Virus record (IMG/VR): IMGVR_UViG_3300010354_000050 | Coordinates: 55,412-119,411 of that record | DNA length: 64,000 nt | Source of the DNA: a virus | Reading direction: 5' to 3' (one strand) | Shown: positions 18,366 to 56,345 of the stretch, piece after piece | Layout: every line of letters begins with the position of its first letter | Position numbering within the stretch: position 1 is the stretch's first letter | The notes under the pieces: model-generated | What the model was told of the DNA's origin: nothing | The model's database searches: none | What the model saw: the letters and a program-made list of their open reading frames with translations, nothing else | Made by a program: the position numbers and the translations under genes

Positions 18366-18438
18366 CGGGGTGTAGCTCAGTTTGGTAGAGCGCTGGTTTT
18401 GGGAACCAGAAGTCACAGGTTCAAATCCTGTCATCCCG
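18366..18438 (+). tRNA. tRNA-Pro (anticodon TGG)
   Basis: The cloverleaf has acceptor CGGGGTG/CATCCCG, D arm GCTC/GAGC, anticodon stem CTGGT/ACCAG with loop TTTGGGA (anticodon TGG), and T arm ACAGG/CCTGT with loop TTCAAAT. No CCA is encoded. Confidence 0.93.
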
Positions 18439-18467
18439 ATTTCTTTTCTGTTAGAAAAGAATAACAA

Positions 18468-18536
18468 TGGTGTGTAGCTCAAAGGAAGAGCAATCGTGTT
18501 AGCCGATAGGTTGAAGGTTCGAGTCCTTTCACACCA
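18468..18536 (+). tRNA. Aberrant tRNA, probably derived from tRNA-Asn (GTT)
   Basis: Acceptor TGGTGTG/CACACCA, D arm GCTC/GAGC and T arm GAAGG/CCTTT with loop TTCGAGT are good. The anticodon arm is abnormal. Only ATCG/CGAT pairs around a TGTTAGC loop, so the GTT of an Asn-like TGTTA is displaced, and the arm looks two bases shorter than tRNA-Asn. It may be a decayed tRNA or one with altered function. Confidence 0.55.
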
Positions 18537-18616
18537 ATTCTCTATTTAATAAATTTAGAATTTGACATTTAAGAGGATCTAGGTCAGAAATCCATCGGAA
18601 ATACCACAAATAAGTG

Positions 18617-26254: not shown

Positions 26255-27874
26255 ATGAAACTTAACCCTATTGGTTATCCTGTAATCTCTGACCAAACTT
26301 TTTCTAAAGTTTTTGGAGAATTCACTAAAAGGTCAATTCCCACATCTACAGAAAAAACTAGAAAACTTCTTCAGGCAAACACTATTCCTTTTCCTGTAGA
26401 CTACCCTGAAAACTTATTTGATGGGGAATTACCTTTTCCAGATCTTAAAGCAAAAACTTTGGATCAACATTTTGAAAAAATTGCTGAAGATTTTGTAGGC
26501 CAATATTTGCAAGATGCCGAAACTTTAGCTACTTGTAAAATCCCACCCATCCCACCTATTCAAGAACTTGTTCCCGAAGTAGGCTGGACAAAATATACTT
26601 TTGAAAATGAAACATGGATTAAAGAACCTGTCCCCTACCCTTTAGAATCTGGGATATTTGATACTGAAACTTTTGTAGAAGGTGGGGCTTTCCCAGTTAT
26701 TGGTACTGCTTTAACCCATAAAGCTGCCTACATCTGGTTAGCTTCTGAATTTGTTAACCCTGATCTCCCTGTAGAGCAATGGGATCAATTTGGGCTAATT
26801 CCCTTAGGAACTGACAAGTTCATTATTGGTCATAATATTTCCTATGATAGAGTTAGGGTTCAAGAAGCATACAACCTTACCAACAATTTACCAGAAAACT
26901 TCTACTTCGATACCCTTTCTGCACATATTGGTGTATCCGGGTTGGCTTCTGGTCAACGTTGGCTCTATGTTCTAGCAGCAAAAGACCCAGATTCCCTTAC
27001 TGAACAAGAAAAGCGCCAACTACGCTTTTCTCCTAAATGGGCTTCTGAAGGAAGTACAAACTCCTTGATTGAAACCTATAACTTCCATGTAGCTGCACCC
27101 AAAGAACTTTTTCAAGATGGAGATTTTAGGTTAAAGGAATCTGATAAGGAAGTCAGGGATTTGTTTGTAAAAGCAAAAACCATGAAGGAGTTGGCTAACC
27201 CCTCTGATTTCTACAAACTAATCGACTACGCGATTAAGGACGTTTTCTATACTTTTGAGCTATATCAAGCCCTATGGCCTAAGTACAGAGAATCTACTCC
27301 TAGTACAGTAGCCTTAGCAGGTCATTACTTTTTAGCAGGCTCTAAGATTCCCCTTGTTGACAACTGGGAAAGTTGGATTGATAAAACTGAAGAAGTTTTT
27401 CAAGCTCAAATGGAAGAAATGGATCAGATTTGCAAAGACCTAATGAAAACCCATGTAGAAGAATGGGGGAAAGAGTTAGACAAAGATCTGCTACAAATTT
27501 CCTATAGGTTTGAAGAAGAACCTGAAAAATTAGTAGAAGAAGTTGGTTTGCAGAAAAAGAAAACTGTAAAGCTAACTGATGTTTTGAAAGCACTAGATAA
27601 ACTAGAAATTGAATGGAGGTTTAACTCTAAACAGTGGGCTGAACAAGACCCCTGGCTAAAACAGCTAGATTGGACACCGCAAAACTACACAGGAAAGTTT
27701 GCCTTTATGCCTAAGTGGGCTTGTAAATTTTTAGCTGAACCTGAAAAGAATAAGTTTTCAGTTAAAAACCGTGCTGCCCATTTACTCCTTAAACTAAAGT
27801 GGGAAGGAAAGCCTATCTTATGGGTTGACGGTCAAGGCTGGTGCTTTGAAGTAGAAGATGAAGCTGATGCTTAA
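26255..27874 (+). CDS. DNA polymerase gamma-like protein, exonuclease and linker half
   Basis: A 539-residue protein matching the N-terminal part of mitochondrial DNA polymerase gamma. Exo I is GIFDTET (about residue 134), Exo II IIGHNISYDRV (about 190) and Exo III YAIKDVFYT (about 325). FDTLSAHIGVSGLASGQR closely parallels LDTMSMHMAISGLSSFQR, and NWESWIDKTEEVFQAQMEEM parallels the following linker region of human POLG. WTPQNY...FAFMPKWACKFL...GWCF matches the linker end. It would proofread 3' ends. The gene stops before the polymerase domain, which lies 849 bases downstream. Confidence 0.9.
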   Translation: MKLNPIGYPVISDQTFSKVFGEFTKRSIPTSTEKTRKLLQANTIPFPVDYPENLFDGELPFPDLKAKTLDQHFEKIAEDFVGQYLQDAETLATCKIPPIPPIQELVPEVGWTKYTFENETWIKEPVPYPLESGIFDTETFVEGGAFPVIGTALTHKAAYIWLASEFVNPDLPVEQWDQFGLIPLGTDKFIIGHNISYDRVRVQEAYNLTNNLPENFYFDTLSAHIGVSGLASGQRWLYVLAAKDPDSLTEQEKRQLRFSPKWASEGSTNSLIETYNFHVAAPKELFQDGDFRLKESDKEVRDLFVKAKTMKELANPSDFYKLIDYAIKDVFYTFELYQALWPKYRESTPSTVALAGHYFLAGSKIPLVDNWESWIDKTEEVFQAQMEEMDQICKDLMKTHVEEWGKELDKDLLQISYRFEEEPEKLVEEVGLQKKKTVKLTDVLKALDKLEIEWRFNSKQWAEQDPWLKQLDWTPQNYTGKFAFMPKWACKFLAEPEKNKFSVKNRAAHLLLKLKWEGKPILWVDGQGWCFEVEDEADA

Positions 27875-27911
27875 AAACCTGTTTTCTATTGCAATTGAAT
27901 AGTTTGGTTGA

Positions 27912-28025
27912 AAAAATCAGGATAGTGATGATGATGGAATATCTCAGACAGTCTTAGGCTTTATTAGTTCATTTGTTCCTTCAAAACCTGAATCAAGAGT
28001 TTATGCTAGAATTAACCCTTGGTAA
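27912..28025 (+). pseudogene. Gene remnant in the polymerase interruption
   Basis: A start-less frame from 27912 reads KNQDSDDDGISQTVLGFISS onward to TAA 28023-28025. No promoter or start codon is present. It may be leftover cassette DNA or an eroded piece of the polymerase linker, which it does not visibly resemble. Confidence 0.35.
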
Positions 28026-28050
28026 TGTCATGTAACCCTGACATTGAATA

Positions 28051-28078
28051 AGAAACCTTTTCAGGTTTCTTTTTTTTT
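28051..28078 (+). terminator. Rho-independent terminator
   Basis: AAGAAACCT, TTT loop, AGGTTTCTT with a long T run. Confidence 0.8.
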
Positions 28079-28079
28079 G

Positions 28080-28108
28080 TTGATATAGGTAAACTGTTCC
28101 TATACAAT
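28080..28108 (+). promoter_or_regulatory. Sigma-70-type promoter
   Basis: TTGATA (28080-28085), 17-bp spacer, TACAAT (28103-28108). Confidence 0.7.
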
Positions 28109-28132
28109 AGGATTGTAGATAAGATTTCAATC

Positions 28133-28468
28133 ATGTTTAACCTATATGTTTGCCTTCCACCTATTACTGGCGTAGTTCTAGCTTATGTCTTCAGGAACCT
28201 AGGGCTATATCAATTTCAATTTCTGTCTTTGTTTGGAGTTTACCTGTATTACTTGTGCTTCAATTTGGTTTTCTTCAGGAAACTTAGAGGAGCCCGAATA
28301 ACCCTCACAGGATTACTTTCTTTCATATACCTTGTACTCAGTTTTCTCTTTCCTGTTTACCATCAAATACCTGAACAACTCTTGGCTGTAGAAAGAGTAA
28401 TCCTTTTAGCTGATTTCAGAGAAAACCTTTACAAGGTTTCCTTTTTTATTCTTTGTAGAACTACCTAA
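28133..28468 (+). CDS. Small multi-pass membrane protein, 111 aa
   Basis: Three or four hydrophobic segments (about residues 5-20, 27-48, 59-80) mark a membrane protein. The frame runs through a terminator hairpin (28421-28447), so the natural stop was probably earlier and the last 20 residues may be read-through after an indel. It lies between the two polymerase halves with its own promoter. No family recognised. Confidence 0.45.
   Translation: MFNLYVCLPPITGVVLAYVFRNLGLYQFQFLSLFGVYLYYLCFNLVFFRKLRGARITLTGLLSFIYLVLSFLFPVYHQIPEQLLAVERVILLADFRENLYKVSFFILCRTT
28421..28447 (+). terminator. Rho-independent terminator inside a reading frame
   Basis: GAGAAAACCTT, ACA, AAGGTTTCC followed by a T6 run. 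It lies within the last codons of the 28133 frame. Confidence 0.65.
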
Positions 28469-28499
28469 ACAGTAAAAAAGCAAGTAGCTAATGAATTTC

Positions 28500-28528
28500 T
28501 TGACAACTAACATATACTAGGTTAAAAT
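28500..28528 (+). promoter_or_regulatory. Sigma-70-type promoter for the polymerase domain half
   Basis: TTGACA (28500-28505), 17-bp spacer, TAAAAT (28523-28528). It serves the decayed gene at 28555 and then the polymerase half at 28723. Confidence 0.75.
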
Positions 28529-28554
28529 AGAAATGTGTACTTCAGGAGCAAGTA

Positions 28555-28720
28555 ATGTTTAAGTGCAAATGCTTTCTTTATGCTGATGACGAATATTTTA
28601 CAGATATTACCCTCAAAGTAAAGCCAGTGCAAAACAATAACTTACATTGTTGAATCTGTAGTTATCCACCCCTACGGCCTAGATGACTATGATTTCACAC
28701 TGTCCCTTTCTGATTATTAA
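28555..28720 (+). pseudogene. Small gene with a single-base frameshift
   Basis: The ATG frame MFKCKCFLYADDEYFTDITL stops at TGA 28651. Another frame, one base away near CAATAAC (28635-28641), continues TYIVESVVIHPYGLDDYDFT to TAA 28718-28720. The joined protein has 54 residues. The ATG has AGGAGCAAGTA upstream, so expression signals are intact. Function unknown. Confidence 0.55.
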
Positions 28721-28722
28721 GC

Positions 28723-30027
28723 ATGAAAAAATCTATTAAAAGAATACCCCACCCTAGCGGAAAAGATGAAAATGTAGGAGGATTGTTTTCTAAAGAATTT
28801 ATTGTAGATATGGAAGTTGGAAGGCTCTCTAGCGATAGTCCATTAGCCCAACGTGCTATTGATATTGCCAACAGTACCTCCTATTGGAACTCTATTAGGA
28901 AGAGGGTTACAGAAAGGATCTACGTACCTACAGAAAACCCACTAGATAGTGACAACAAAGCCAATATCACTATCCCTAACATTCTCCCCCATGGCACCGT
29001 TACCAGAAGAACTGTAGAACCTATGATGGTTACAATGTGTTCTACAAAGCCAAATAGGATAGGTACAGAACTTAAGACAAGGATCAAAGCCCCTAAAGGT
29101 TGGAAAATTGTAGGTGCTGACTTTGACGGTCAAGAGTTACAAATTGCTTCTACCTATGCTGACAAGTGGGAAGGTGGGTTCATTGGAGCTTCTCCTATGA
29201 CCTACATTATTCTAGCAGGTAGTAAGGATAAAGGTACAGATGCCCATACCTTGCTATCTAAGAAAATCAATACAGATAGAGATACGGCTAAGGGTGTAGG
29301 CTTTGCTATCTTGTATGGTGCTGGTTCATTAACTATTGCTAACACTATCAAGAAAAAGTTCAAAGATCGTCATGAAGCTGAACTAAGAGGTTTTGGTGAA
29401 GAGGCAATTAAGTTCAAGAAAGGTTTGAAAGATTCTGAAGGTTACTACTATGGTGGAACCGATTCAGGTTGCTACAATTTCATGGAAAACATTGCCTTAC
29501 GTTCCAGAATCCCTACTTTACCTTGTCTAAAAACTAAAATTTCTACTGCATTGAGGCCAAATGTAGTCGATAATAAATTTGTTACAGGTAGGGTCAACTG
29601 GACTATTCAGGCTTCGGGTGCAGAAGTTTTATCTATTTTCCTAACTTCCGTTCACTGGTTAGCAAGTTATTTCAAGATTCCTGCCCAATTCATCATCAGT
29701 ATCCATGATGAGACTTGGTTCATGGTTCCTGAAAAGTTTGCTGAGCAATTTTGTGTCATCTTTCAAATGGCCCATTTGTATACCTGGTCAAGGTTTCATT
29801 ATGGTGTAGGAATTAATGATCTCCCCCTTAGTCGAGCATTCTTTTCTTCAGTAGCTATTGATGAGAGGATCAGGAAAACACCAAAAGAAAAAACTATTAC
29901 TCCCTCCCACCCTGAAGGAATTAATGAACCCTCTGGTGAAGAATTTTCTATGAAGCAAATGGATGAACTTGGTTGGGTGAAGAAGTTAGGAACAAGAAAA
30001 CAGCTTATTGAAAAAGGAATTTTGTGA
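28723..30027 (+). CDS. DNA polymerase gamma-like protein, polymerase half (family A)
   Basis: A 434-residue protein matching the C-terminal polymerase domain of POLG. LPHGTVTRRTVEPM and PNRIGTELKTRIKAP mirror the POLG palm. Motif A is VGADFDGQEL (about residue 130), motif B DTAKGVGFAILYGAG (about 190) and motif C ISIHDE (about 325). The C-terminus LPLSRAFFSSVAIDERIRK parallels LPQSVAFFSAVDIDRCLRK of human POLG. Residues 1-90 (HPSGKDENVGGLFSKEF) match the POLG segment just before the palm, so only about 150-180 linker residues are missing between the halves. All catalytic acids are present. It has its own promoter at 28500. Confidence 0.92.
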   Translation: MKKSIKRIPHPSGKDENVGGLFSKEFIVDMEVGRLSSDSPLAQRAIDIANSTSYWNSIRKRVTERIYVPTENPLDSDNKANITIPNILPHGTVTRRTVEPMMVTMCSTKPNRIGTELKTRIKAPKGWKIVGADFDGQELQIASTYADKWEGGFIGASPMTYIILAGSKDKGTDAHTLLSKKINTDRDTAKGVGFAILYGAGSLTIANTIKKKFKDRHEAELRGFGEEAIKFKKGLKDSEGYYYGGTDSGCYNFMENIALRSRIPTLPCLKTKISTALRPNVVDNKFVTGRVNWTIQASGAEVLSIFLTSVHWLASYFKIPAQFIISIHDETWFMVPEKFAEQFCVIFQMAHLYTWSRFHYGVGINDLPLSRAFFSSVAIDERIRKTPKEKTITPSHPEGINEPSGEEFSMKQMDELGWVKKLGTRKQLIEKGIL

Positions 30028-31140: not shown

Positions 31141-31515
31141 ATGAGTGGAGTAAAAGTTCTTAGAAGGGGTGAAGATTCCCCCCAATCTGATGATCAAGGT
31201 TCTGTTTCCTCTACCTCGAAGACATCAGAAGTCTTTTGTGCAACCCTTAGCACTGGTCAGGAAATTTGCATCAGACCCATGAAAGCGTCTGACATTATGT
31301 GGATGGAAACTTTAGACAGAGGTAAGGAGCCTGTAGGGGATGTTCAAAAATCCTTGAAGCTAGTTGCCAGGTTGTCTACAAAAACCCAACACCCCATTAC
31401 TTTCCCTTTCCTAATGGATTTGTCCATGCCAGATCTTAAAATTGTAACAGATCTGTTGGCAAAGGCAAGTGGGACTAAGGAAGAAGAAGTTGACGATTTT
31501 GACCCAAACTTCTAA
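31141..31515 (+). CDS. Tail assembly chaperone, first frame (124 aa)
   Basis: The central part (ATLSTGQEICIRPMKASDIM) resembles the small phage tail assembly chaperones of the Mu gp41/P2 E/lambda G class. The C-terminus is acidic (EEEVDDFDPN). Its stop follows a canonical -1 slippery heptamer (31503-31509), and the -1 frame continues into the next gene, as in lambda G and GT. The position just before a gpG-like tail gene supports this. The tape-measure gene, usually nearby, is not in the window. Confidence 0.7.
   Translation: MSGVKVLRRGEDSPQSDDQGSVSSTSKTSEVFCATLSTGQEICIRPMKASDIMWMETLDRGKEPVGDVQKSLKLVARLSTKTQHPITFPFLMDLSMPDLKIVTDLLAKASGTKEEEVDDFDPNF
31503..31509 (+). promoter_or_regulatory. 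-1 ribosomal frameshift site CCCAAAC
   Basis: The heptamer is C CCA AAC in the frame of the 31141 gene (codons CCA 31504-31506, AAC 31507-31509), the X XXY YYZ form. A -1 slip re-reads it as CCC AAA and continues open to the stop at 31955. The 0-frame stop TAA follows at 31513. It is analogous to the lambda G-T slippery site. Confidence 0.75.
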
Positions 31516-31955
31516 AAACCACTGCTACTGAAGATTTCTCTTACATAGTAGAATTAGGGGAAAAAATTACCTTGAACATAAGGGAATTGACCCCTAAAGA
31601 CTACTACCTTGTAAGTTTAATTCAAAATGATTACCCGGATATGTCTTCTTTAGTATTTAATTTCCTCCTGTTACAAAAGTTAGCCAATATTACTGAAGAA
31701 GAATTAGATCAAATTCCTGTATATTTCTTCAAACCTTTGTTCAAATGGATCAATGATGAAATACTGGAAGGGAAGGTAATGACAGTAGAACAGTGGTTAT
31801 CCCTGGCTTTTCACCTTTGCAAACAAAGATGGGATCAATCAATAGACTGGTTAGAGCAACAGCCTGTCAGCAAAATCCTACTTATGTTGAAAATTCAATC
31901 AGATTTTGTTGAAAAAGAAAAGCAAGAAATGAAAAAATCAGCAAGGAAGAAATGA
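31503..31955 (+). CDS. Tail assembly chaperone, second (-1) frame, made as a fusion to the 31141 product
   Basis: This frame is open from 31503 (after a TGA at 31500-31502) to TAA 31953-31955. The part before the TTG at 31572 reads KLLKTTATEDFSYIVELGEK, which looks like real protein, and no ATG is near the 5' end. Together with the slippery site this argues that it is translated by -1 frameshifting as a G-T type extension of about 270 residues total. TTG 31572 (with GGGGAAAA upstream) could start a separate product. The C-terminus is helical and basic. Confidence 0.65.
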   Translation, partial: PKLLKTTATEDFSYIVELGEKITLNIRELTPKDYYLVSLIQNDYPDMSSLVFNFLLLQKLANITEEELDQIPVYFFKPLFKWINDEILEGKVMTVEQWLSLAFHLCKQRWDQSIDWLEQQPVSKILLMLKIQSDFVEKEKQEMKKSARKK

Positions 31956-32317
31956 TAAGCTTTGAAGTTAGTTTTCCAGAGTTTGATCCAAACTGGTTGC
32001 AAAAGTGTAAAGATGAAATAGTTAAGGTTGTCGAAGAGGAAAACAGATCTTCTTGGAAGCAGGAACAAAACCCCACTACAGGTGCAAAATGGCCCCCTAG
32101 GAAACAGCCTACAGGGTCATGGCCTTTGCTTAACAAGACTGGGAGAATGTTTAGCCAGACTAAGTTTGAAGCTAAGGGAAGTGGTAACTCTTTACCTATA
32201 AAAGCACAATTTCCTTTTTATGGCCAATTCCACCAGAACAACAGACCTTGGTTAGGGGTTCCTCCTTCCTCTAGCCCAAAGATCGGTCAAATCATTGCTA
32301 AAAATGTATTCAAGTAA
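31952..32317 (+). CDS. Tail completion / virion morphogenesis protein (Mu gpG-like), 121 aa
   Basis: It starts in an ATGATAA overlap with the chaperone frame. AKWPPRKQPTGSWPLLNKTG, then FPFYGQFHQNNRPWLGVPPS matches the pattern W-P-x-RK...LL-x-TG...YGxxHQ...RPxLG of the phage virion morphogenesis family (Mu gpG, P2 gpS). Those proteins complete the tail or its connection to the head. It ends the tail-assembly group. Confidence 0.75.
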   Translation: MISFEVSFPEFDPNWLQKCKDEIVKVVEEENRSSWKQEQNPTTGAKWPPRKQPTGSWPLLNKTGRMFSQTKFEAKGSGNSLPIKAQFPFYGQFHQNNRPWLGVPPSSSPKIGQIIAKNVFK

Positions 32318-35771: not shown

Positions 35772-38700
35772 ATGGCTACAATTTCCATTGGTAGAGGTGG
35801 TGCGCCCGGAACTTTTATCTACGAATCCGGTATTGCATCCCAAGCAGGTACAGCAAGTTTTAATACAGTTTATATGCTAGTAGAGGCTCCAAATGAAGCT
35901 TCTACTTTTGTTTTTCCATTCAATACTCCTCTTTTTGTAGGGAGTCTGAATGAATACGAGAATTTGATTGGTGGGATCCCTGCTTCTGGTGCAGAACTAG
36001 ATTCCTACTATGCCGTCAAGAGCTTTTTCCAGCAAGCAAACATTGGTGATCTAAGGGTAATCAGGGTTGGCACCCCTAGTACTATTGTACAAGTAGGTTT
36101 CAGTCCCTCTGCTAACAAGGATAATGGAGTTTCTGCTCCTACACCTTTGCTAAGAAATGATAAGGTCTACATCAAACTAGAAGTTAATGGTATTCGTCTT
36201 GGTGATGTAACACCTTCTGGTGCTTGGCTTGGCGTTCCTGTCACTATTCCTGTAGACTATGTGGCTGGAAGTGTTGACAACAATCTAAAGATCTCTAATG
36301 CTATTGTAAATGCAGTAGCAGAAGCTATTAAGACTAATGCAGATATTTCTTCTGGGATCTATGTCCGAGAAATTAAAACTGGAATCCCTTGTGCAGAATG
36401 TTCTAGTCTACATCTTGCCAACAGGGTATTCAATGGCCCAGTAGAAATTATCAACTATTCCGATGTAACAGGGAATCAATTCATCCTTGCTTCTTCTGGC
36501 TACAGCATTGATACTGTTTCTTTTTCAGAAGTTTCAGTTTACGACTGGATTCAGTGTGTCCAAACTAGCCTAGATGGTGCAAGTTTGCCTAAGGGTTATC
36601 TAATTGCTCCTGCTGCTTTCAAGAAGTACAAAAAAGCAGATAGGGTCAATCTTGGTCAAGCTATGGAAGAAGTTTGCTCTGTTATCAAATGGATGGCCCT
36701 AGTAGATTGTGGCCCATTCAATGTAACAGATATTTCTGAATTTAGTTTGTTTGAAGAACATATTCCTGCTGACGGGTTCTTTCCCTCTGGCAAATATCTA
36801 ATTAGCAATGCAATTTTTGAATGGATTTCTACTAATCCATTGCTTTTTACATCTGCTAATTACAAAGAAGATTCTGCCCTCCTATCTGCTAATAGAAACC
36901 TAGCTAATGGGCAAAGATTAGCCCTCAAGGATGATCGAAGAATTAATGTTGGTGTAGGTGCAAATACCTCAGGAAATTATCTAATTCTTGAAGAAAATTG
37001 GCCTTCTAACCTCAGGTCAGGCGAGTTAGTATTTATTGAAGCCTTTGATGCAACTCCTGTACCTACTCTGCCTTTGTATACAGATGCTTATACCGACACC
37101 TACAACCAACCTCTTTCTGGCCCCTTTTACCTAATTGCCAAAGATGTTGATCCTACCCTAGAAGCCAATCAAATTAGACTGGCAACTTCTAAGGTAAGGG
37201 CACTAGGGAACATTTCTATTGATTTACTAACAGCGGGGACTCCCCAAGGTGGTGGATTAATTACTCTCACTTATGATAACCCTTCCTGGGAATTAGAAGT
37301 AGAAATTGATTCTAAAGTTTCTAGCTTAGTAGAATCCAAAGGTGCATCATTCAATTCCCTGCATTTGCCTGGTTCACTTCAAAAACCTACTGCTGAATTT
37401 GATTTCAAAGCTACTATTAGGCAACTGACTAACCCCAGCTTGTCAATTTTCAAAGGTGGCATTTCCCTTTCCTACTTCAATTCTACCAATGTAAATACTT
37501 CTACTGGAACCTTTACCATTCCTAACCATGGCTATGCTACTGGTGATATGGTAAATTACTACAGTTTACCAAGTGCGGCTGCTCCTGGTGGACTTTCCAG
37601 TTTTGCTACTTACTATGTTATTAGAATTGACAACAATTCATTAAAACTTGCTACTACTTTAGCAAATGCTAATGCTGGTACTTCAGTCACCCTAACTACT
37701 ACTGGGACAGATTCTTCAACTGTAAAATCTCCTTCTGGTGGCAGTGCCCAATCCATCCTTACTACTGGTGGAGATTGTCTGATCTTTTCTTCTGAACATG
37801 ACATCAAAACAGCCGACAGGGTTTACTTTAATGCCAACATTCTATCACAAAATTCAGATATTGTCTTCAGAGGGTCAACAGAAACCTCAGTAACAACCTA
37901 CTTTGCAAACTTAGTAGACAGAAACTTCTTTACTCTAGCTAACTCTAGTTCTAATTTAGCTGCTGGTGCTTTCATAGATTACCCTGTTTCTAATATTGGA
38001 ACTACTGCTTCTCGACTGGTTTACAAGAAACTAGGAGTAACTCTAGATGGGGGAACCTTTACTGAATCTGGTCTAATCCGGTTTATTCGAGGGAGGAAAT
38101 ATCAACTAGATGTAACTTTAGCAGTTTTCCTAGTCAAAGATGAAGCAAATGTTTCTGTAGTATCTGGTGAAGATAATCCTTATGGTACTGCGTATACAGC
38201 CGACATTTCAACCGACTTACGGTTATCCTACAGTGAATTTCCTGTAGCACCCCCTGTCTTCAGAGTAGCGGCTGAAGATGTTAATGATGTTGACAGCGAA
38301 TTTACTATTACTGGACATGGCTATCAAACTGGAGATTCTGTAACCATTGATGTTGCTCCTGATGCAATTCTGGCTGATGGCCTAGAAAATTCTGTTACCT
38401 ACTACATTATTAAAGTAGATAACAACACTGTTCAACTAGCAACTTCAGTAACCAATGCTGTTGCGGGGACTTTTATTTCTTTGGGAGATGCAGGTACTAA
38501 CAACTCCTTCGGAATTGAATTTTTTGTATCCTCTGCATCTTCTCCCTTTACTTTCCAATATACTGAAGACTTTGAATCTGCCCCACTAAATTCAGCTAGT
38601 GATTTTGCAGGAGAAAACAATTTCTACTGTGTTCCTTTAACAACTGGAATCCAAGCTAATGCTTCTGTAGATAATGTCTACTTGCACTTAGTTGTAGAAA

Positions 38701-39647
38701 GTGGTTCTTCCCAATCTACCATGTATGGGGGATTTACTGACATTCAATTTGTAGAACCCTCTTCTACAGTTCCTTCAACCCTTTGGAACTTCAGAGTTAT
38801 CACTTCTAATGATTTAGTTAGTGAAGCCTTAAGGGGTTTGAATAGTGGGGGAGTTCCACAGATTAAAGTTTTGGAAGCAGGTATAGATTCTCATGCTAGA
38901 CTACAATCTGATTGCGAATCCTATTCTACTACAGCAGGTTTCCTTGCCTACTATGCTCCTTACATTAAAAATGATGTTGGTTCCTTCATTGCCCCTTCTT
39001 CCTTTGTAACAGGATTGGCAATAAGGCGCTATAGGGATGAAGCAGCAGGTTTTAGGCTACCTCCTGCTGGTACGAAATATTCCTTAGCTGGTGCAAGAGG
39101 AGTTCAGATCCCAATTACAACTGCTCAACAGGATATTTCTAACCGGATTGGCCTAAATGCCCTTAGGCAGCTTCCAGGTTACAGCACTGTTGACCCCCTT
39201 ACCGGAGAAGTATTTGGCCCTGTATTTGTATGGGGTTCAAGAACTAGGGTAAACAGGGCTAATGCTACCCAAGCCCTATACCAATTTGTAAATACCAGGG
39301 TTATTCTTAATGTAATCTATGGTTCACTGCAAAATGCCTTAGATGGGCAAATCTTTTCTATTGTAGATGGTCAATCAGTAACATTTAATCAGATTAATAC
39401 TTTGATTACAAATGTTCTCTACAACAACTTCTATATTCCTGGTGCATTGTTTGGTGAAACTCCTGCTGATGCTTTCCAAGTTGTAGTAGATGAAAGGGTT
39501 AATCCGCCAAACCAGGTTGAACAAGGTGTCATTAATGCTAAGGTATTTGTAGTACCTGTACCTACCCTTGAAAGGATTGAGATTGATCTTATCAGGGTTA
39601 ATATTGGTGCTGCCCAATCTACTTTAGTAGACCTTGGCCTACAATAA
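35772..39647 (+). CDS. Contractile tail sheath protein, 1291 aa, with inserted repeat domains
   Basis: The N-terminal GRGGAPGTFIYESGIASQAG and the C-terminal domain (PITTAQQDISNRIGLNALRQ, VFVWGSRTRVNRANATQALY, YQFVNTRVILNVIYGSLQNA) are those of a myovirus sheath. It is two to three times the usual length. The excess lies at about residues 480-990 and contains two copies of a 65-residue domain (FTIPNHGYATGDMVNYY near 580 and FTITGHGYQTGDSVTID near 846, both ending in an LATxxxNAxAGT strand). These probably decorate the tail surface. The ATG has AAGGAGAATTTA upstream. A terminator follows. Confidence 0.88.
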   Translation: MATISIGRGGAPGTFIYESGIASQAGTASFNTVYMLVEAPNEASTFVFPFNTPLFVGSLNEYENLIGGIPASGAELDSYYAVKSFFQQANIGDLRVIRVGTPSTIVQVGFSPSANKDNGVSAPTPLLRNDKVYIKLEVNGIRLGDVTPSGAWLGVPVTIPVDYVAGSVDNNLKISNAIVNAVAEAIKTNADISSGIYVREIKTGIPCAECSSLHLANRVFNGPVEIINYSDVTGNQFILASSGYSIDTVSFSEVSVYDWIQCVQTSLDGASLPKGYLIAPAAFKKYKKADRVNLGQAMEEVCSVIKWMALVDCGPFNVTDISEFSLFEEHIPADGFFPSGKYLISNAIFEWISTNPLLFTSANYKEDSALLSANRNLANGQRLALKDDRRINVGVGANTSGNYLILEENWPSNLRSGELVFIEAFDATPVPTLPLYTDAYTDTYNQPLSGPFYLIAKDVDPTLEANQIRLATSKVRALGNISIDLLTAGTPQGGGLITLTYDNPSWELEVEIDSKVSSLVESKGASFNSLHLPGSLQKPTAEFDFKATIRQLTNPSLSIFKGGISLSYFNSTNVNTSTGTFTIPNHGYATGDMVNYYSLPSAAAPGGLSSFATYYVIRIDNNSLKLATTLANANAGTSVTLTTTGTDSSTVKSPSGGSAQSILTTGGDCLIFSSEHDIKTADRVYFNANILSQNSDIVFRGSTETSVTTYFANLVDRNFFTLANSSSNLAAGAFIDYPVSNIGTTASRLVYKKLGVTLDGGTFTESGLIRFIRGRKYQLDVTLAVFLVKDEANVSVVSGEDNPYGTAYTADISTDLRLSYSEFPVAPPVFRVAAEDVNDVDSEFTITGHGYQTGDSVTIDVAPDAILADGLENSVTYYIIKVDNNTVQLATSVTNAVAGTFISLGDAGTNNSFGIEFFVSSASSPFTFQYTEDFESAPLNSASDFAGENNFYCVPLTTGIQANASVDNVYLHLVVESGSSQSTMYGGFTDIQFVEPSSTVPSTLWNFRVITSNDLVSEALRGLNSGGVPQIKVLEAGIDSHARLQSDCESYSTTAGFLAYYAPYIKNDVGSFIAPSSFVTGLAIRRYRDEAAGFRLPPAGTKYSLAGARGVQIPITTAQQDISNRIGLNALRQLPGYSTVDPLTGEVFGPVFVWGSRTRVNRANATQALYQFVNTRVILNVIYGSLQNALDGQIFSIVDGQSVTFNQINTLITNVLYNNFYIPGALFGETPADAFQVVVDERVNPPNQVEQGVINAKVFVVPVPTLERIEIDLIRVNIGAAQSTLVDLGLQ

Positions 39648-45819: not shown

Positions 45820-46239
45820 ATGCCAATCTTAAAGCCTATTGCCAAGTCTGCATTTATTGTTACCATTTCTGGAATGGAAACAATTTGGACTACCTTTTCT
45901 GGGATTGTAGATACGGCTGAAAGTGGTCAATATGCCAACGGAACAGGAAACAGGATCTATAAAGTTATCGGCCCTAGGGCTGTTGATGATGTCACCTTAT
46001 CTGCTCCTTATGACCCTATCCTAGCTGCTACTATTGAAAGGATTTGGTTACAGTATAATTGTGAATACATAACAATTATTATTCAGCCAACTACTTGTAA
46101 TGGTACTACCAGAAATGGCCCACCTTATGTCCTCAACGGCTGTCAATTGCAGCAACTAACTGTTGCAGAAATGGATAGAGAATCTGGAGATGTAGGAACT
46201 ATTGAGCTAGTATTTACTGTAAACTCCTGGACAAGATAA
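45820..46239 (+). CDS. Tail tube protein (T4 gp19-like), 139 aa
   Basis: The pattern SAFIVTISGMETIWTTFSG, then SGQYANGTGNRIYKVIGPRA and VDDVTLSAPYDPILAATIER matches tail tube proteins (a strand with 'FxVxIsG...W..fSGi', then 'pG...v.dvtLs...d'). It directly follows the major capsid gene and has AGAGGAAAAACC before its ATG. A strong terminator follows, so capsid and tube are one operon end. Confidence 0.72.
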   Translation: MPILKPIAKSAFIVTISGMETIWTTFSGIVDTAESGQYANGTGNRIYKVIGPRAVDDVTLSAPYDPILAATIERIWLQYNCEYITIIIQPTTCNGTTRNGPPYVLNGCQLQQLTVAEMDRESGDVGTIELVFTVNSWTR

Positions 46240-46829: not shown

Positions 46830-49787
46830 ATGCCAAGATATGCACCTTTATCTAGAATACAACTAGACCCTAGAAGTGAATCAGAATTAGTATCTGCTGC
46901 TGCCCAAAGAGTATTTGAAGCATCGGGAGCTACTATTAATGATTTTTCTGCTGGATCTCCTATCATGGCTTTGCTGGAAGGCCAAGCATTTGCACAGGCA
47001 GAATTTTTGCAATTTGCTAATGAGTTTCCTGAAGCTGTTTTATTAGATTGGGTTGGGCCTTTTCTTGGTGCCCAAAGGAGGACTGGCTCAGGATCTATTG
47101 CAGGTATAACGTTTGAAATTAACCCAAGGGATCAAGATTTTGTTATTTTTGAAGGTTTTGAAGTAACAACTAACCCTTCATTAACTTTCGGGGAAACTAT
47201 TAATTTTGTAACAACTCGAACCCTAGTCATACCTGCTGGACAAAGCGAAGGAACTGTAGAAGCAGTTTCAGTTTTTGTAGGCATCAATACTAACGTAGCA
47301 GCAAATTCTATAGTTAGGAATGTTACCAGTTTAGCAGGTATTAAAAGAATCTATAATAAAGAACCCGCTGTTGGAGGTTCTGATGTAGAGCTTCTTTCTG
47401 AGGTAAAAGAAAGGTTCTTTTCTTTAATACGTAGGAGGAACCCTGTCTCCAGGGAAGACTGGGTAGACTTCTTCACTGATGCTATGGGAGTGGGAGCAGT
47501 AGTAAATGTTTTGCCTAATCGGTCTGAAAGGGAGTTTTACCAATACAACCAGAAAAATCCCTATGTATCGTTCTTCTTACTAAACCCCAATGGAACTACC
47601 TTAACTGAAGTCCAGACAAAGGCTCTAGAAAATCTGGTAAAATGGTCTTTGCCTGTCCAATTTCAAGGAAAAATATACCCTGTTGAACTCAGTGATCTAG
47701 ATGTTCTGCTAGAAGTTGCCTATAATCCTGATAACAATTTTTCAATTGATTTGCAATCTGTTTCTAAAACAATTAGAAATAATTTAGCTGCAATCCTGTC
47801 ACCTAATGCAGTTTTTCCACCGGACTATCAACTAACGGCTAATGAGGTTTCTTCTAAACTTGACTTGACTTTCCCGCAAGTATTTGGAACAGTATTTGAC
47901 CCAACTATTTTGAACTTTACAGGTTACTTCACTCCTAATAAACTATCTAGTTCTAATATTTTTGCAAAGGTTGTCCCCTATCAAACTGGGAAAGTTGCCA
48001 AAGTCAATGATCTAGTCAAAATAGATTCTGTTGTTGAATCTAGTTTATACCCTGTTGTCAATGAATTTAGCCCACAACTAGGAGATGAGTTCTACCATGC
48101 TAACTTGGGAGATCTTAACTTACAAATCATCAAACCTTTAGTTCCAGGTCAGTATAAAACTGGAGAAGTCATTTCAGATAAAGGAGTTATCTATGTGGTG
48201 TTATCTTCTTTTCTATATACAGGTACTAGAACTATTCTAGACCTTATCAACCAAGGGTTCCTTAGTGTTGAAAAATCTTTTTCTCCTTTTCAAGTAGGGT
48301 CTAACTACCGGGCTATTACAGATAGTGGCAAGTATGATCCCCAGATAATTGAATTTACAGCAAATTCTAATAAAGTTTATGAACCCCAGCTTCCACAAGA
48401 TGTTGCCCTAACTTCAAGAGTAGGGTATCCAATTTGGGTAGTTGCCAAGAATTTTACTCGGCTTGAAAACTTGACTGACTTAGGATCAACTCAGGCTTCA
48501 GGTTTTGTTAGCAAAGATGAAGTTTTTATCAAACCTTTGCAAGTTTTAATTACTTACAGGAAAGGAGAATATGTAGAAACTCCCAATCCTAGCAAACAAC
48601 TATCAGCTTTCCCTGACCCTGAATCTTGTTATTTAGATCAAAATCTTGGAGCTTTCGTCCTTACCTTTATCGTAAATAATGATTTTACATTTAGATTAGA
48701 AGAAGGAAAATCTTTCAAGGAAGTAATAGATTCTTTGGTTTCATTGGGAGTTATTTCAGAAATTCAAACTATACCTTTCATAGGTTGTGACGGTAAAGGG
48801 TATTTTGCTTCTCAACCTTTCAAATACAATACTAGATTTACTATTGGAGAGTATGTTAGATTTAGACCTAGAGGGGGTTTTAATTCTTCTGAATTAGAAA
48901 ACTGCTTAAGGCAAGTTGATGTTTGCCCTTCCTTACAAGGTTCCTGTAAAAAGCTTTTAGAAGCTGAATTGCCCTTACCTTCTTACTTCCTAGTTGCCAA
49001 AGACTTTACTCCCAATTCTTCAAACATTCAAGACCCTATCAGCAGCGGTTATTTAGTTCCTGTAGATAGGTCTATTTTCTTCCCTAGCTATACTGTACTT
49101 TGTCCAGAATCTAAAGAAATAGTAGATGAAAGTTGCATTTCTTCTTTCCTATTTGATCAACAGATCATAACCTCTATTGGTCAGTTAATTGTTGGCCAAG
49201 TTACAGAAGTAGTAGATTCACTAGGAAACCCCTTAAATTACTATACTTGGACTGGAACCAGTTGGGTTACTAATCCGAATCCCTTCCCTACTTATCGTGA
49301 ATTGTTCAGATTTGCTCCTGGTGATGTGGCTTCTTTCAAGCAAAGAAATTCTATTTTTAACTATGAATCAACTTCCCATGTAACTCCCTTTACAGAAATA
49401 GATGTTTACTACAAAGCAGGTATATTTACACCTACTAGCAAAACAGAAACAGTAAAGTTTTTTGATCCTTTATACAGATTAGAAACAATTTCTACTAATA
49501 ACAATAAGTTCTACAGAACCATTACTCCTTTTACTTCTGAAGAAGATATAAGTATTGAAGAAGTAGAACTTTCTGGAAAAGTTCAGAAAATAGTCTGTAA
49601 GGGTGAAGGGTCAGAAAAGCTTTTTCCAAGACTTGATCCTCAAGCTTCCATGTTGACCTTAGGAAACATCCAAGTTAAAATGAGATCAAAAGGTTCTACA
49701 GAAACCTTCCAGAGTTTTACTTGGGGTAAATCTAATAATTCTGTAGCAAGCCCTGAATCCTATGGTAATGGGACTTTGGGTTTATAG
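46830..49787 (+). CDS. Baseplate J-like / T4 gp6-like protein, 985 aa
   Basis: Residues 1-330 follow baseplate J/gp6: SAAAQRVFEASGATINDFSA, then GSPIMALLEGQAFAQAEFLQ and VGPFLGAQRRTGSGSIAGIT, plus VGGSDVELLSEVKERFFSLI and RRRNPVSREDWVDFFTDAMG. The remaining 600 residues are beta-rich and contain carbohydrate- or tail-tip-type sequence, much longer than Mu gp47 (about 380). It would form the baseplate wedge and link fibres. It has an ATG start at 46830 behind AAAGAAAAAG. Confidence 0.85.
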   Translation: MPRYAPLSRIQLDPRSESELVSAAAQRVFEASGATINDFSAGSPIMALLEGQAFAQAEFLQFANEFPEAVLLDWVGPFLGAQRRTGSGSIAGITFEINPRDQDFVIFEGFEVTTNPSLTFGETINFVTTRTLVIPAGQSEGTVEAVSVFVGINTNVAANSIVRNVTSLAGIKRIYNKEPAVGGSDVELLSEVKERFFSLIRRRNPVSREDWVDFFTDAMGVGAVVNVLPNRSEREFYQYNQKNPYVSFFLLNPNGTTLTEVQTKALENLVKWSLPVQFQGKIYPVELSDLDVLLEVAYNPDNNFSIDLQSVSKTIRNNLAAILSPNAVFPPDYQLTANEVSSKLDLTFPQVFGTVFDPTILNFTGYFTPNKLSSSNIFAKVVPYQTGKVAKVNDLVKIDSVVESSLYPVVNEFSPQLGDEFYHANLGDLNLQIIKPLVPGQYKTGEVISDKGVIYVVLSSFLYTGTRTILDLINQGFLSVEKSFSPFQVGSNYRAITDSGKYDPQIIEFTANSNKVYEPQLPQDVALTSRVGYPIWVVAKNFTRLENLTDLGSTQASGFVSKDEVFIKPLQVLITYRKGEYVETPNPSKQLSAFPDPESCYLDQNLGAFVLTFIVNNDFTFRLEEGKSFKEVIDSLVSLGVISEIQTIPFIGCDGKGYFASQPFKYNTRFTIGEYVRFRPRGGFNSSELENCLRQVDVCPSLQGSCKKLLEAELPLPSYFLVAKDFTPNSSNIQDPISSGYLVPVDRSIFFPSYTVLCPESKEIVDESCISSFLFDQQIITSIGQLIVGQVTEVVDSLGNPLNYYTWTGTSWVTNPNPFPTYRELFRFAPGDVASFKQRNSIFNYESTSHVTPFTEIDVYYKAGIFTPTSKTETVKFFDPLYRLETISTNNNKFYRTITPFTSEEDISIEEVELSGKVQKIVCKGEGSEKLFPRLDPQASMLTLGNIQVKMRSKGSTETFQSFTWGKSNNSVASPESYGNGTLGL

Positions 49788-51222: not shown

Positions 51223-51385
51223 TTTTGAAATAACTGGTATCCTAAATATGTCAGGTAATAGAATAGAAGGTTTAGCTCCTGTCCCCAATGAACCCAGTGA
51301 AGCCGTATCTAAGTCCTATGTAGATCAGTTAAAGAAAGAAATAGAGTCCCGTTTACCCACTTTACTTGATAATGGAAATTTTTGA
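51206..51385 (+). CDS. Small fibre-segment protein, 59 aa
   Basis: ATG 51206 to TGA 51383-51385, overlapping the genes on both sides (16 and 14 bases). It reads MEHTTNFEITGILNMSGNRI, then EGLAPVPNEPSEAVSKSYVD, the common 'LNMxGNxIxNLxxPxxxxDAxxKxYVD' unit found repeated in tail fibres, here alone in one small gene. It may be a small collar or assembly part. It ends in LLDNGNF, like its neighbours. Confidence 0.6.
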   Translation: MEHTTNFEITGILNMSGNRIEGLAPVPNEPSEAVSKSYVDQLKKEIESRLPTLLDNGNF

Positions 51386-55405: not shown

Positions 55406-56345
55406 TAAATTCTTTTGGGGAGTTTACCGGGATTCAGAAGAAATTGAAGATGATGATGAAAATGATAATCATTATCCATCTTGGTATGATGAACCTTTGG
55501 TAGAAATAAACCCTTATAGGGAAACTTGGGTAGTTTACCAGACTTTCACAACTATTGAAGTAGATGAAGCTCCTGTAGAAATTGCCCAAGAAATTTACCC
55601 CTACATCAATACTTGGCAATGTTTCCAAAGCATTACTATTGTTTATGAATTTGAACCCTTCCAAGATCCCTTACTTAAATTTGATGAAACTCTAATAGGG
55701 AGAACTTCATTAGGGATAATATTCAATAGTGGGTTAATTGGAGAAGTTTATCAAACAATATATGATTCTGGAGAGTTCAATTCTGAAGGATTAATAGGGT
55801 ATACTGTGAAAAAGATATTAGCTGAAATTACTGTTTATGATTCCCTCCATTCTCAACCTGGAAATATCTATACAATCCCAGAAGATCTAGGCGTAATTGA
55901 AACAGAAGCAGAATTAGAAAATCCAGAATACTTGTTACAAGATTCAGAAAACAACCAAGTAACTGATGAAAATAAAGTTTCATTTGTTCTAGATGGTGAA
56001 GAGGCCACATCTAACACTATTGTTGGAGATGGAGATCAAGACTCGGTTTCCTTAGTAGTTTCAGGAAACAGTAACCCTACCTATGACAAACCTCCAGGTC
56101 ACTTATTAGCTTCTCTGAGCTATGAAATTTTAGGGTCAATTGCTACTATTACAGCTTGGTCACATCCTAATTGGGAAGATGATGCGCCACTTAGGAAAGC
56201 TGTAGAAACTATGATAAATAGTTTGCCAAATTGTGTTTTTGAAGTACAAGTAGAAGATGACCCTACAGCTTTCTGGACTTCTTTTGGATTTAGATCTGCT
56301 GTTAAAGGAGATCCTTTCCTTAGACTTTATTTGAATCCTAATTGA
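55380..56345 (+). CDS. Acidic tail protein with a GNAT-like C-terminus, 321 aa
   Basis: The frame begins with three consecutive ATG codons (55380-55388) overlapping the previous gene by 26 bases, so coupling is likely. The middle is acidic and repetitive (EIAQEIYPYINTWQCFQSIT). The last 85 residues (LLASLSYEILGSIATITAWS, then ALPxCVFEVQ-like and AFWTSFGFRS) resemble the C-terminal half of a GNAT domain, but the acetyl-CoA motif is not clear. Function unknown. Confidence 0.5.
   Translation: MMMLVPQHDKFFWGVYRDSEEIEDDDENDNHYPSWYDEPLVEINPYRETWVVYQTFTTIEVDEAPVEIAQEIYPYINTWQCFQSITIVYEFEPFQDPLLKFDETLIGRTSLGIIFNSGLIGEVYQTIYDSGEFNSEGLIGYTVKKILAEITVYDSLHSQPGNIYTIPEDLGVIETEAELENPEYLLQDSENNQVTDENKVSFVLDGEEATSNTIVGDGDQDSVSLVVSGNSNPTYDKPPGHLLASLSYEILGSIATITAWSHPNWEDDAPLRKAVETMINSLPNCVFEVQVEDDPTAFWTSFGFRSAVKGDPFLRLYLNPN

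Follow-up and report, generated by a model that had tools for sequence, protein, structure and literature searches.

Two overlapping open reading frames in an uncultivated virus raise the question of whether a slippery heptamer at their junction joins them into one protein, and of which proteins they encode. The source is IMG/VR record IMGVR_UViG_3300010354_000050 (119,411 bases), of which the window, the whole stretch of DNA analysed here, covers 64,000 nucleotides (positions 55,412 to 119,411). The pair is best read as encoding, by means of a -1 programmed ribosomal frameshift, the tail assembly chaperones of a phage with a contractile tail, and the probability of this reading is estimated at about 0.93.

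The heptamer and the two reading frames

The junction is made up of the following features, numbered by window position.

31141-31515, + strand: ORF1, an open frame whose normal termination product would be a 124-aa short tail assembly chaperone
31503-31509, + strand: slippery heptamer CCCAAAC, putative -1 programmed frameshift site, read C CCA AAC
31513-31515, + strand: frame-0 stop codon TAA of ORF1, one codon past the heptamer
31503-31955, + strand: ORF2 (-1 frame), putative second gpE-like domain with a C-terminal helical extension

The first-pass annotation had placed CCCAAAC in the phase C CCA AAC near the stop of the gene starting at 31141, with the -1 frame open from the heptamer to 31955. 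Both points were borne out by direct reading of the codons. ORF1 ends in GAC CCA AAC TTC TAA, with the single sense codon TTC between the heptamer and the stop, and the -1 frame, which is closed immediately 5' of the heptamer, is open from 31503 over 150 codons to a TAA at 31953-31955. The predicted products are the 124-aa ORF1 protein and a 271-aa fusion (123 + 148 residues).

As a word, CCCAAAC is neither rare nor enriched in the window: it occurs 13 times, against 9.8 ± 3.2 expected, and 24 of 100 shuffles reach 13. A scan for in-phase XXXYYYZ heptamers on both strands, with Y being A or T, a frame-0 stop at most 10 codons away and no fewer than 60 open codons on each side, returned exactly one site in the window, that at 31503.

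Conservation of the junction and evidence for translation through it

When the window's ORF1 alone was used as a query of viral contigs, no relatives were retrieved; they were found by ORF2 alignment. The 150-aa -1 frame as scan query gave 5 loci, and an alignment that included the Synechococcus phage S-CBWM1 gave 80 viral loci and one metagenome-assembled contig. One of the loci found (L083) begins past the junction. The junction set comprises 82 records, namely the window and 81 relatives including S-CBWM1, which represent 64 distinct 180-nt contexts and fall into 48 clusters at 80% nucleotide identity and 18 at 70%.

CCCAAA is present in the same phase in all 82 records, all 64 contexts and all 48 clusters at 80% identity. 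Comparative conservation had been proposed as a check in the first-pass annotation, and each of the 81 related loci that hold the junction keeps CCCAAA(C/A/G) in phase, which excludes a chance origin altogether. Within the heptamer only the last base, Z, varies among the 64 contexts (C in 53, A in 8, G in 3 and T in none), as expected under tandem slippage. The base before CCA is C in 64 of 64 contexts, across six different residues; the codon that gives it is GAC in 57 contexts and AGC, TTC, AAC, TCC, GGC or GCC in the rest, and this supply by several different codons implies that the C is retained regardless of the residue. Elsewhere in these genes, CCA accounts for 24% of proline codons and GAC for 58% of aspartate codons. 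A frame-0 stop follows the heptamer directly in 53 of the 64 contexts (TAA in 36, TGA in 17) and one codon later in the remaining 11. Where the stop abuts the heptamer, as at L002:6001-6010, TAA and TGA account for all 53 contexts and TAG for none.

The first-pass annotation gave the second frame no ATG, which is not quite correct. The start codons of the -1 frame in the window are TTG at 31572 and ATG at 31641 and 31779, and no ATG, GTG or TTG lies before 31572; a start at this TTG would remove the first β-strands of the ORF2 domain. In two relatives (L005 and L006) the -1 frame reaches its first ATG, GTG or TTG only at codon 69. Few of the contexts have an ATG close to the beginning of ORF2, and most relatives lack one there. 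Among nucleotide differences between relatives in -1 codons 3-12 past the heptamer, 70% fall at the third position, equal to the value in mid-gene. The AlphaFold2 model of the -1 product has a mean pLDDT of 92.9, with residues 1-10 at 87 and a first strand at residues 4-8, so that the modelled ORF2 domain begins at the heptamer. The scarcity of early starts, the third-position pattern and the confident N-terminal model together indicate that translation of the protein runs through the heptamer.

The RNA past the heptamer folds more stably than its composition predicts. For the 80 nt beginning 5 nt past the heptamer, the mean z across the 48 clusters is -2.5 relative to dinucleotide shuffles, against a much weaker folding excess in other parts of the genes; the window's own 80-nt stretch has a z of -2.64. 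Under synonymous-codon permutation the excess peaks 12-66 nt downstream (mean z -1.77 ± 0.20, with 73% of sequences below -1), and z is near zero outside this interval. An excess of folding stability over about 50-80 bases 3' of the heptamer is therefore clear, and a stimulatory hairpin at this place is likely. Two hairpins are predicted in the window.

31522-31551, + strand: predicted RNA hairpin, possible 3' stimulator, 12 nt past the heptamer, at the family-wide peak of folding stability
31557-31594, + strand: another predicted hairpin within this folded stretch, from the window sequence only

RNAalifold found no common structure in 30 aligned sequences. A hand-defined stem gave 74% paired cells, compared with 31-45% when it was slid along the alignment, and its covariation score lay within the range of shuffles.

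ORF2 might instead be a separate gene, reached by translational coupling or by an internal non-ATG start, with the heptamer being incidental. The TTG at 31572 would suit such a start, and both L038 and S-CBWM1 (junction CCCAAAATGA) have an ATG overlapping the ORF1 stop, which makes coupling possible in S-CBWM1 as well; in cyanophage S-TIM5 (ATGAGTGA) the frame relation between ORF1 and ORF2 is a different one. However, the window and most relatives have no start codon that would take in the conserved first residues of ORF2, and L005 and L006 have no start of any kind before codon 69. Coding-type substitution in the -1 frame sets in at the heptamer, as does the folded domain, and an incidental sequence would drift, whereas this heptamer is invariant. 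A separately initiated ORF2 is thus very improbable. Slippage of the polymerase rather than the ribosome would likewise yield a mixture of two products, but no result of the analysis favours it. Known sites of polymerase slippage have a long homopolymer run, whereas the site here is CCC AAA, and its conserved X XXY YYZ phase agrees with the slippage of two tRNAs in tandem, which leaves a transcriptional origin scarcely credible. As for an assembly error or a broken gene, the split frame is the sole point in its favour, and comparison refutes both, the same junction being present in 82 records with an isolate genome among them; the chance of either is negligible.

Sequence comparison strongly supports the junction as a genuine and deeply conserved site of -1 frameshifting that belongs to a known kind. 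Under ribosomal frameshifting, most ribosomes would read ORF1 to the TAA at 31513 and release the 124-aa short chaperone. A minority would pause at C CCA AAC, held by the downstream RNA hairpin and perhaps also by the nearby stop codon, and the tRNAs on CCA and AAC would slip back onto CCC and AAA. Such ribosomes would resume at CTT (31509) and continue to the TAA ending at 31955, yielding the 271-aa fusion, which adds a second chaperone-like domain and a helical arm at the C-terminus.

Protein identity and gene neighbourhood

The heptamer had also been taken to settle the identity of the two genes. By itself it is insufficient for this purpose, and it was the family matches of the relatives that did so. 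These matches independently support the proposed tail assembly chaperone identity: Phage_TAC_7 (PF10109; P2 gpE/Mu gp41 type) is matched by 43 of 45 members of the ORF1 family at E ≤ 0.1 (best 2.1e-6), and phrog_344, a PHROG tail assembly chaperone, by 36 of 45. The window's ORF1 alone gave no significant family match in Pfam and PHROG profile searches. The window's ORF2 matches Phage_TAC_7 at E 0.016, and 21 of 48 members of its family match phrog_9001 (tail assembly chaperone), with the window's match covering the C-terminal part. No Pfam match to a lambda G-type family was found at E ≤ 0.1 among the 45 ORF1 and 48 ORF2 members, and sequence and fold searches of the PDB returned nothing useful.

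The two halves of the fusion resemble each other. Profile comparison of the ORF1 half with the ORF2 half gave an E of 7e-6 and a probability of 85%, and their AlphaFold2 models run through the same series of elements (strand, strand, helix, helix, short helix, helix), to which the ORF2 model adds two long helices; the quality of the ORF1 model is modest (pLDDT 72). The ORF2 profile also matches the L004 genome 5' of ORF2, at the place of ORF1 (E 4e-4), and the ORF1 model weakly finds the ORF2 homologue of S-TIM5 (E 0.05). This likeness in profile and model suggests that the fusion probably carries two related domains of the same fold together with a helical extension, the profile evidence being moderate. 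A more specific proposal is that of a tandem chaperone whose -1 part is a second domain copy with a tube-binding arm, S-TIM5 belonging to a wider lineage and having two overlapping genes instead of frameshifting; the odds of this are slightly short of even. If the tandem-domain reading is true, the two products would stand in a ratio of one-domain to two-domain chaperones, instead of that of a chaperone to the same chaperone with a tail added. On the model of lambda G/GT and P2 E/E', the short form would serve as the coat of the tape measure protein, the long form would in addition bring in tube subunits, and the ratio of short to long would matter for tail assembly.

Three tail genes lie downstream of the pair.

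31952-32317, + strand: Phage_tail_S/tail completion protein (PF05069, E 7e-4; phrog_26, E 2.5e-4), syntenic in relatives
35772-39647, + strand: tail sheath (phrog_17610, E 3e-38), syntenic in relatives
45820-46239: tube gene, downstream of the chaperone pair

The start of the tail completion gene overlaps the end of ORF2 (ATGA). In relatives the pair is followed by the tail completion gene and then by g35197, the sheath, gp25 and a Mu-type portal. The tail is contractile. The sheath is unusually long (1291 aa), and inserts near its residues 555-690 match baseplate wedge and tail fibre profiles. On the 5' side the pair is preceded by DNA polymerase and, in closer relatives, by a kinase-like gene too. 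Chaperone genes usually sit between the major tail gene and the tape measure gene (PMC2628397), a position that is typical and not defining; the window's pair departs from it, adjoining DNA polymerase well before the tube gene. A search for a tape measure gene recognised none in the window's tail region, and the record as a whole gave no match to PF10145. One candidate for the tape measure, a 1069-aa gene at 51366, was rejected: it has no tape-measure match, matches S-CBWM1 gp84, and is poor in alanine and rich in glycine, phenylalanine and tyrosine.

This neighbourhood bears on the possibility that the shift is real and the chaperone reading wrong, the joined proteins having some other role such as baseplate or neck assembly. 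The pair adjoins DNA polymerase and not a tape measure gene, the family matches of the C-terminal part of ORF2 are weak, and the BFVD fold comparison of ORF1 gave, among its weak matches, some proteins named baseplate hub assembly. Against these stand the Phage_TAC_7, phrog_344 and phrog_9001 matches across both families and the order of the genes that follow, tail completion and then sheath. Another role is accordingly improbable, and a tail assembly chaperone pair is the preferred identity.

Several other features of the region were observed. The family A DNA polymerase (window 26255-30027) is split into two ORFs of 539 and 434 aa, separated by about 850 bp in which a 111-aa ORF lies. The gene is uninterrupted in L002, L010 and S-CBWM1, and in the window it is broken between nearly adjacent residues; no intron was detected there by Rfam. 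A phage tRNA-Pro with anticodon UGG (window 18366-18439) reads CCA, the codon that is also found in the slippery site. ARAGORN classed a further tRNA at 18468-18537 (Rfam 53.5 bits) as a stop tRNA whose anticodon, UUA, would read UAA; its loop position 33 seems to hold G in place of U. Despite this tRNA, TAA ends 32 of 54 larger ORFs checked in the window.

Relation to known frameshift systems

The mechanism is a textbook phage device. Neither CCCAAAC at a tail-chaperone frameshift nor frameshifting in this phage group, which includes a Synechococcus isolate, was found reported in the open-licence literature. Here it comes with a probable domain duplication and an unusual position of the genes. 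Two hypothetical genes gain names throughout a large group of phages with contractile tails, most of them uncultured, and the 48 diverged copies of one slippery site, with their varied 3' RNA and stop contexts, form a natural series.

In S-CBWM1 (MG450654), gp79 and gp80 are homologous to the window's pair, carry an in-phase CCCAAAA and have the same genes around them. They are annotated as two separate hypothetical proteins, an annotation that the present reading corrects. In the more distant cyanophage S-TIM5 (JQ245707), AEZ65665 and AEZ65664 are structural homologues of both halves and lie adjacent to each other beside the sheath gene (L091 2238-3012, which is S-TIM5 48737-49511, minus strand). 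There is no slippery heptamer in S-TIM5: ORF1 ends ..GATGAGTGA and ORF2 starts from an overlapping ATG in the +1 (= -2) frame. This may represent a loss of frameshifting or an alternative to it, and such a homologous pair lacking the heptamer provides a testable case of its gain or loss.

Among reported sites, C_CCA_AAG is highly shift-prone in Escherichia coli and G_GGA_AAC is the g-t gene site of a halovirus (PMC5009743). A second codon AAC, which results from the usual Z = C here, is reported to be mammalian-like and not of bacterial type (PMC5009743), and this counts against the frameshift reading. Mu shifts by -2, and the two products of lambda are made at about 30:1 (PMC5009743).

The lambda G/GT arrangement proposed in the first-pass annotation holds insofar as this is a chaperone pair with a -1 frameshift: the slip lies just before the end of the first gene and would give a short and an extended tail chaperone. 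In contrast to lambda, no G-type family match was found, the tail is contractile and not that of a siphovirus, and the second frame seems to go beyond a T-like extension; the family and the tail point to P2 gpE/E' and Mu gp41 instead. P2 also has a short chaperone, E, and a frameshift-extended form, E+E'. The window's pair differs from P2 E/E' in that its -1 frame is probably a second domain of the same fold, its heptamer is C CCA AAN, and it lies beside DNA polymerase, well before the tube gene. Because the ORF1 family matches Phage_TAC_7 and the tail is contractile, P2 E/E' is the closest working model, nearer than lambda G/GT.
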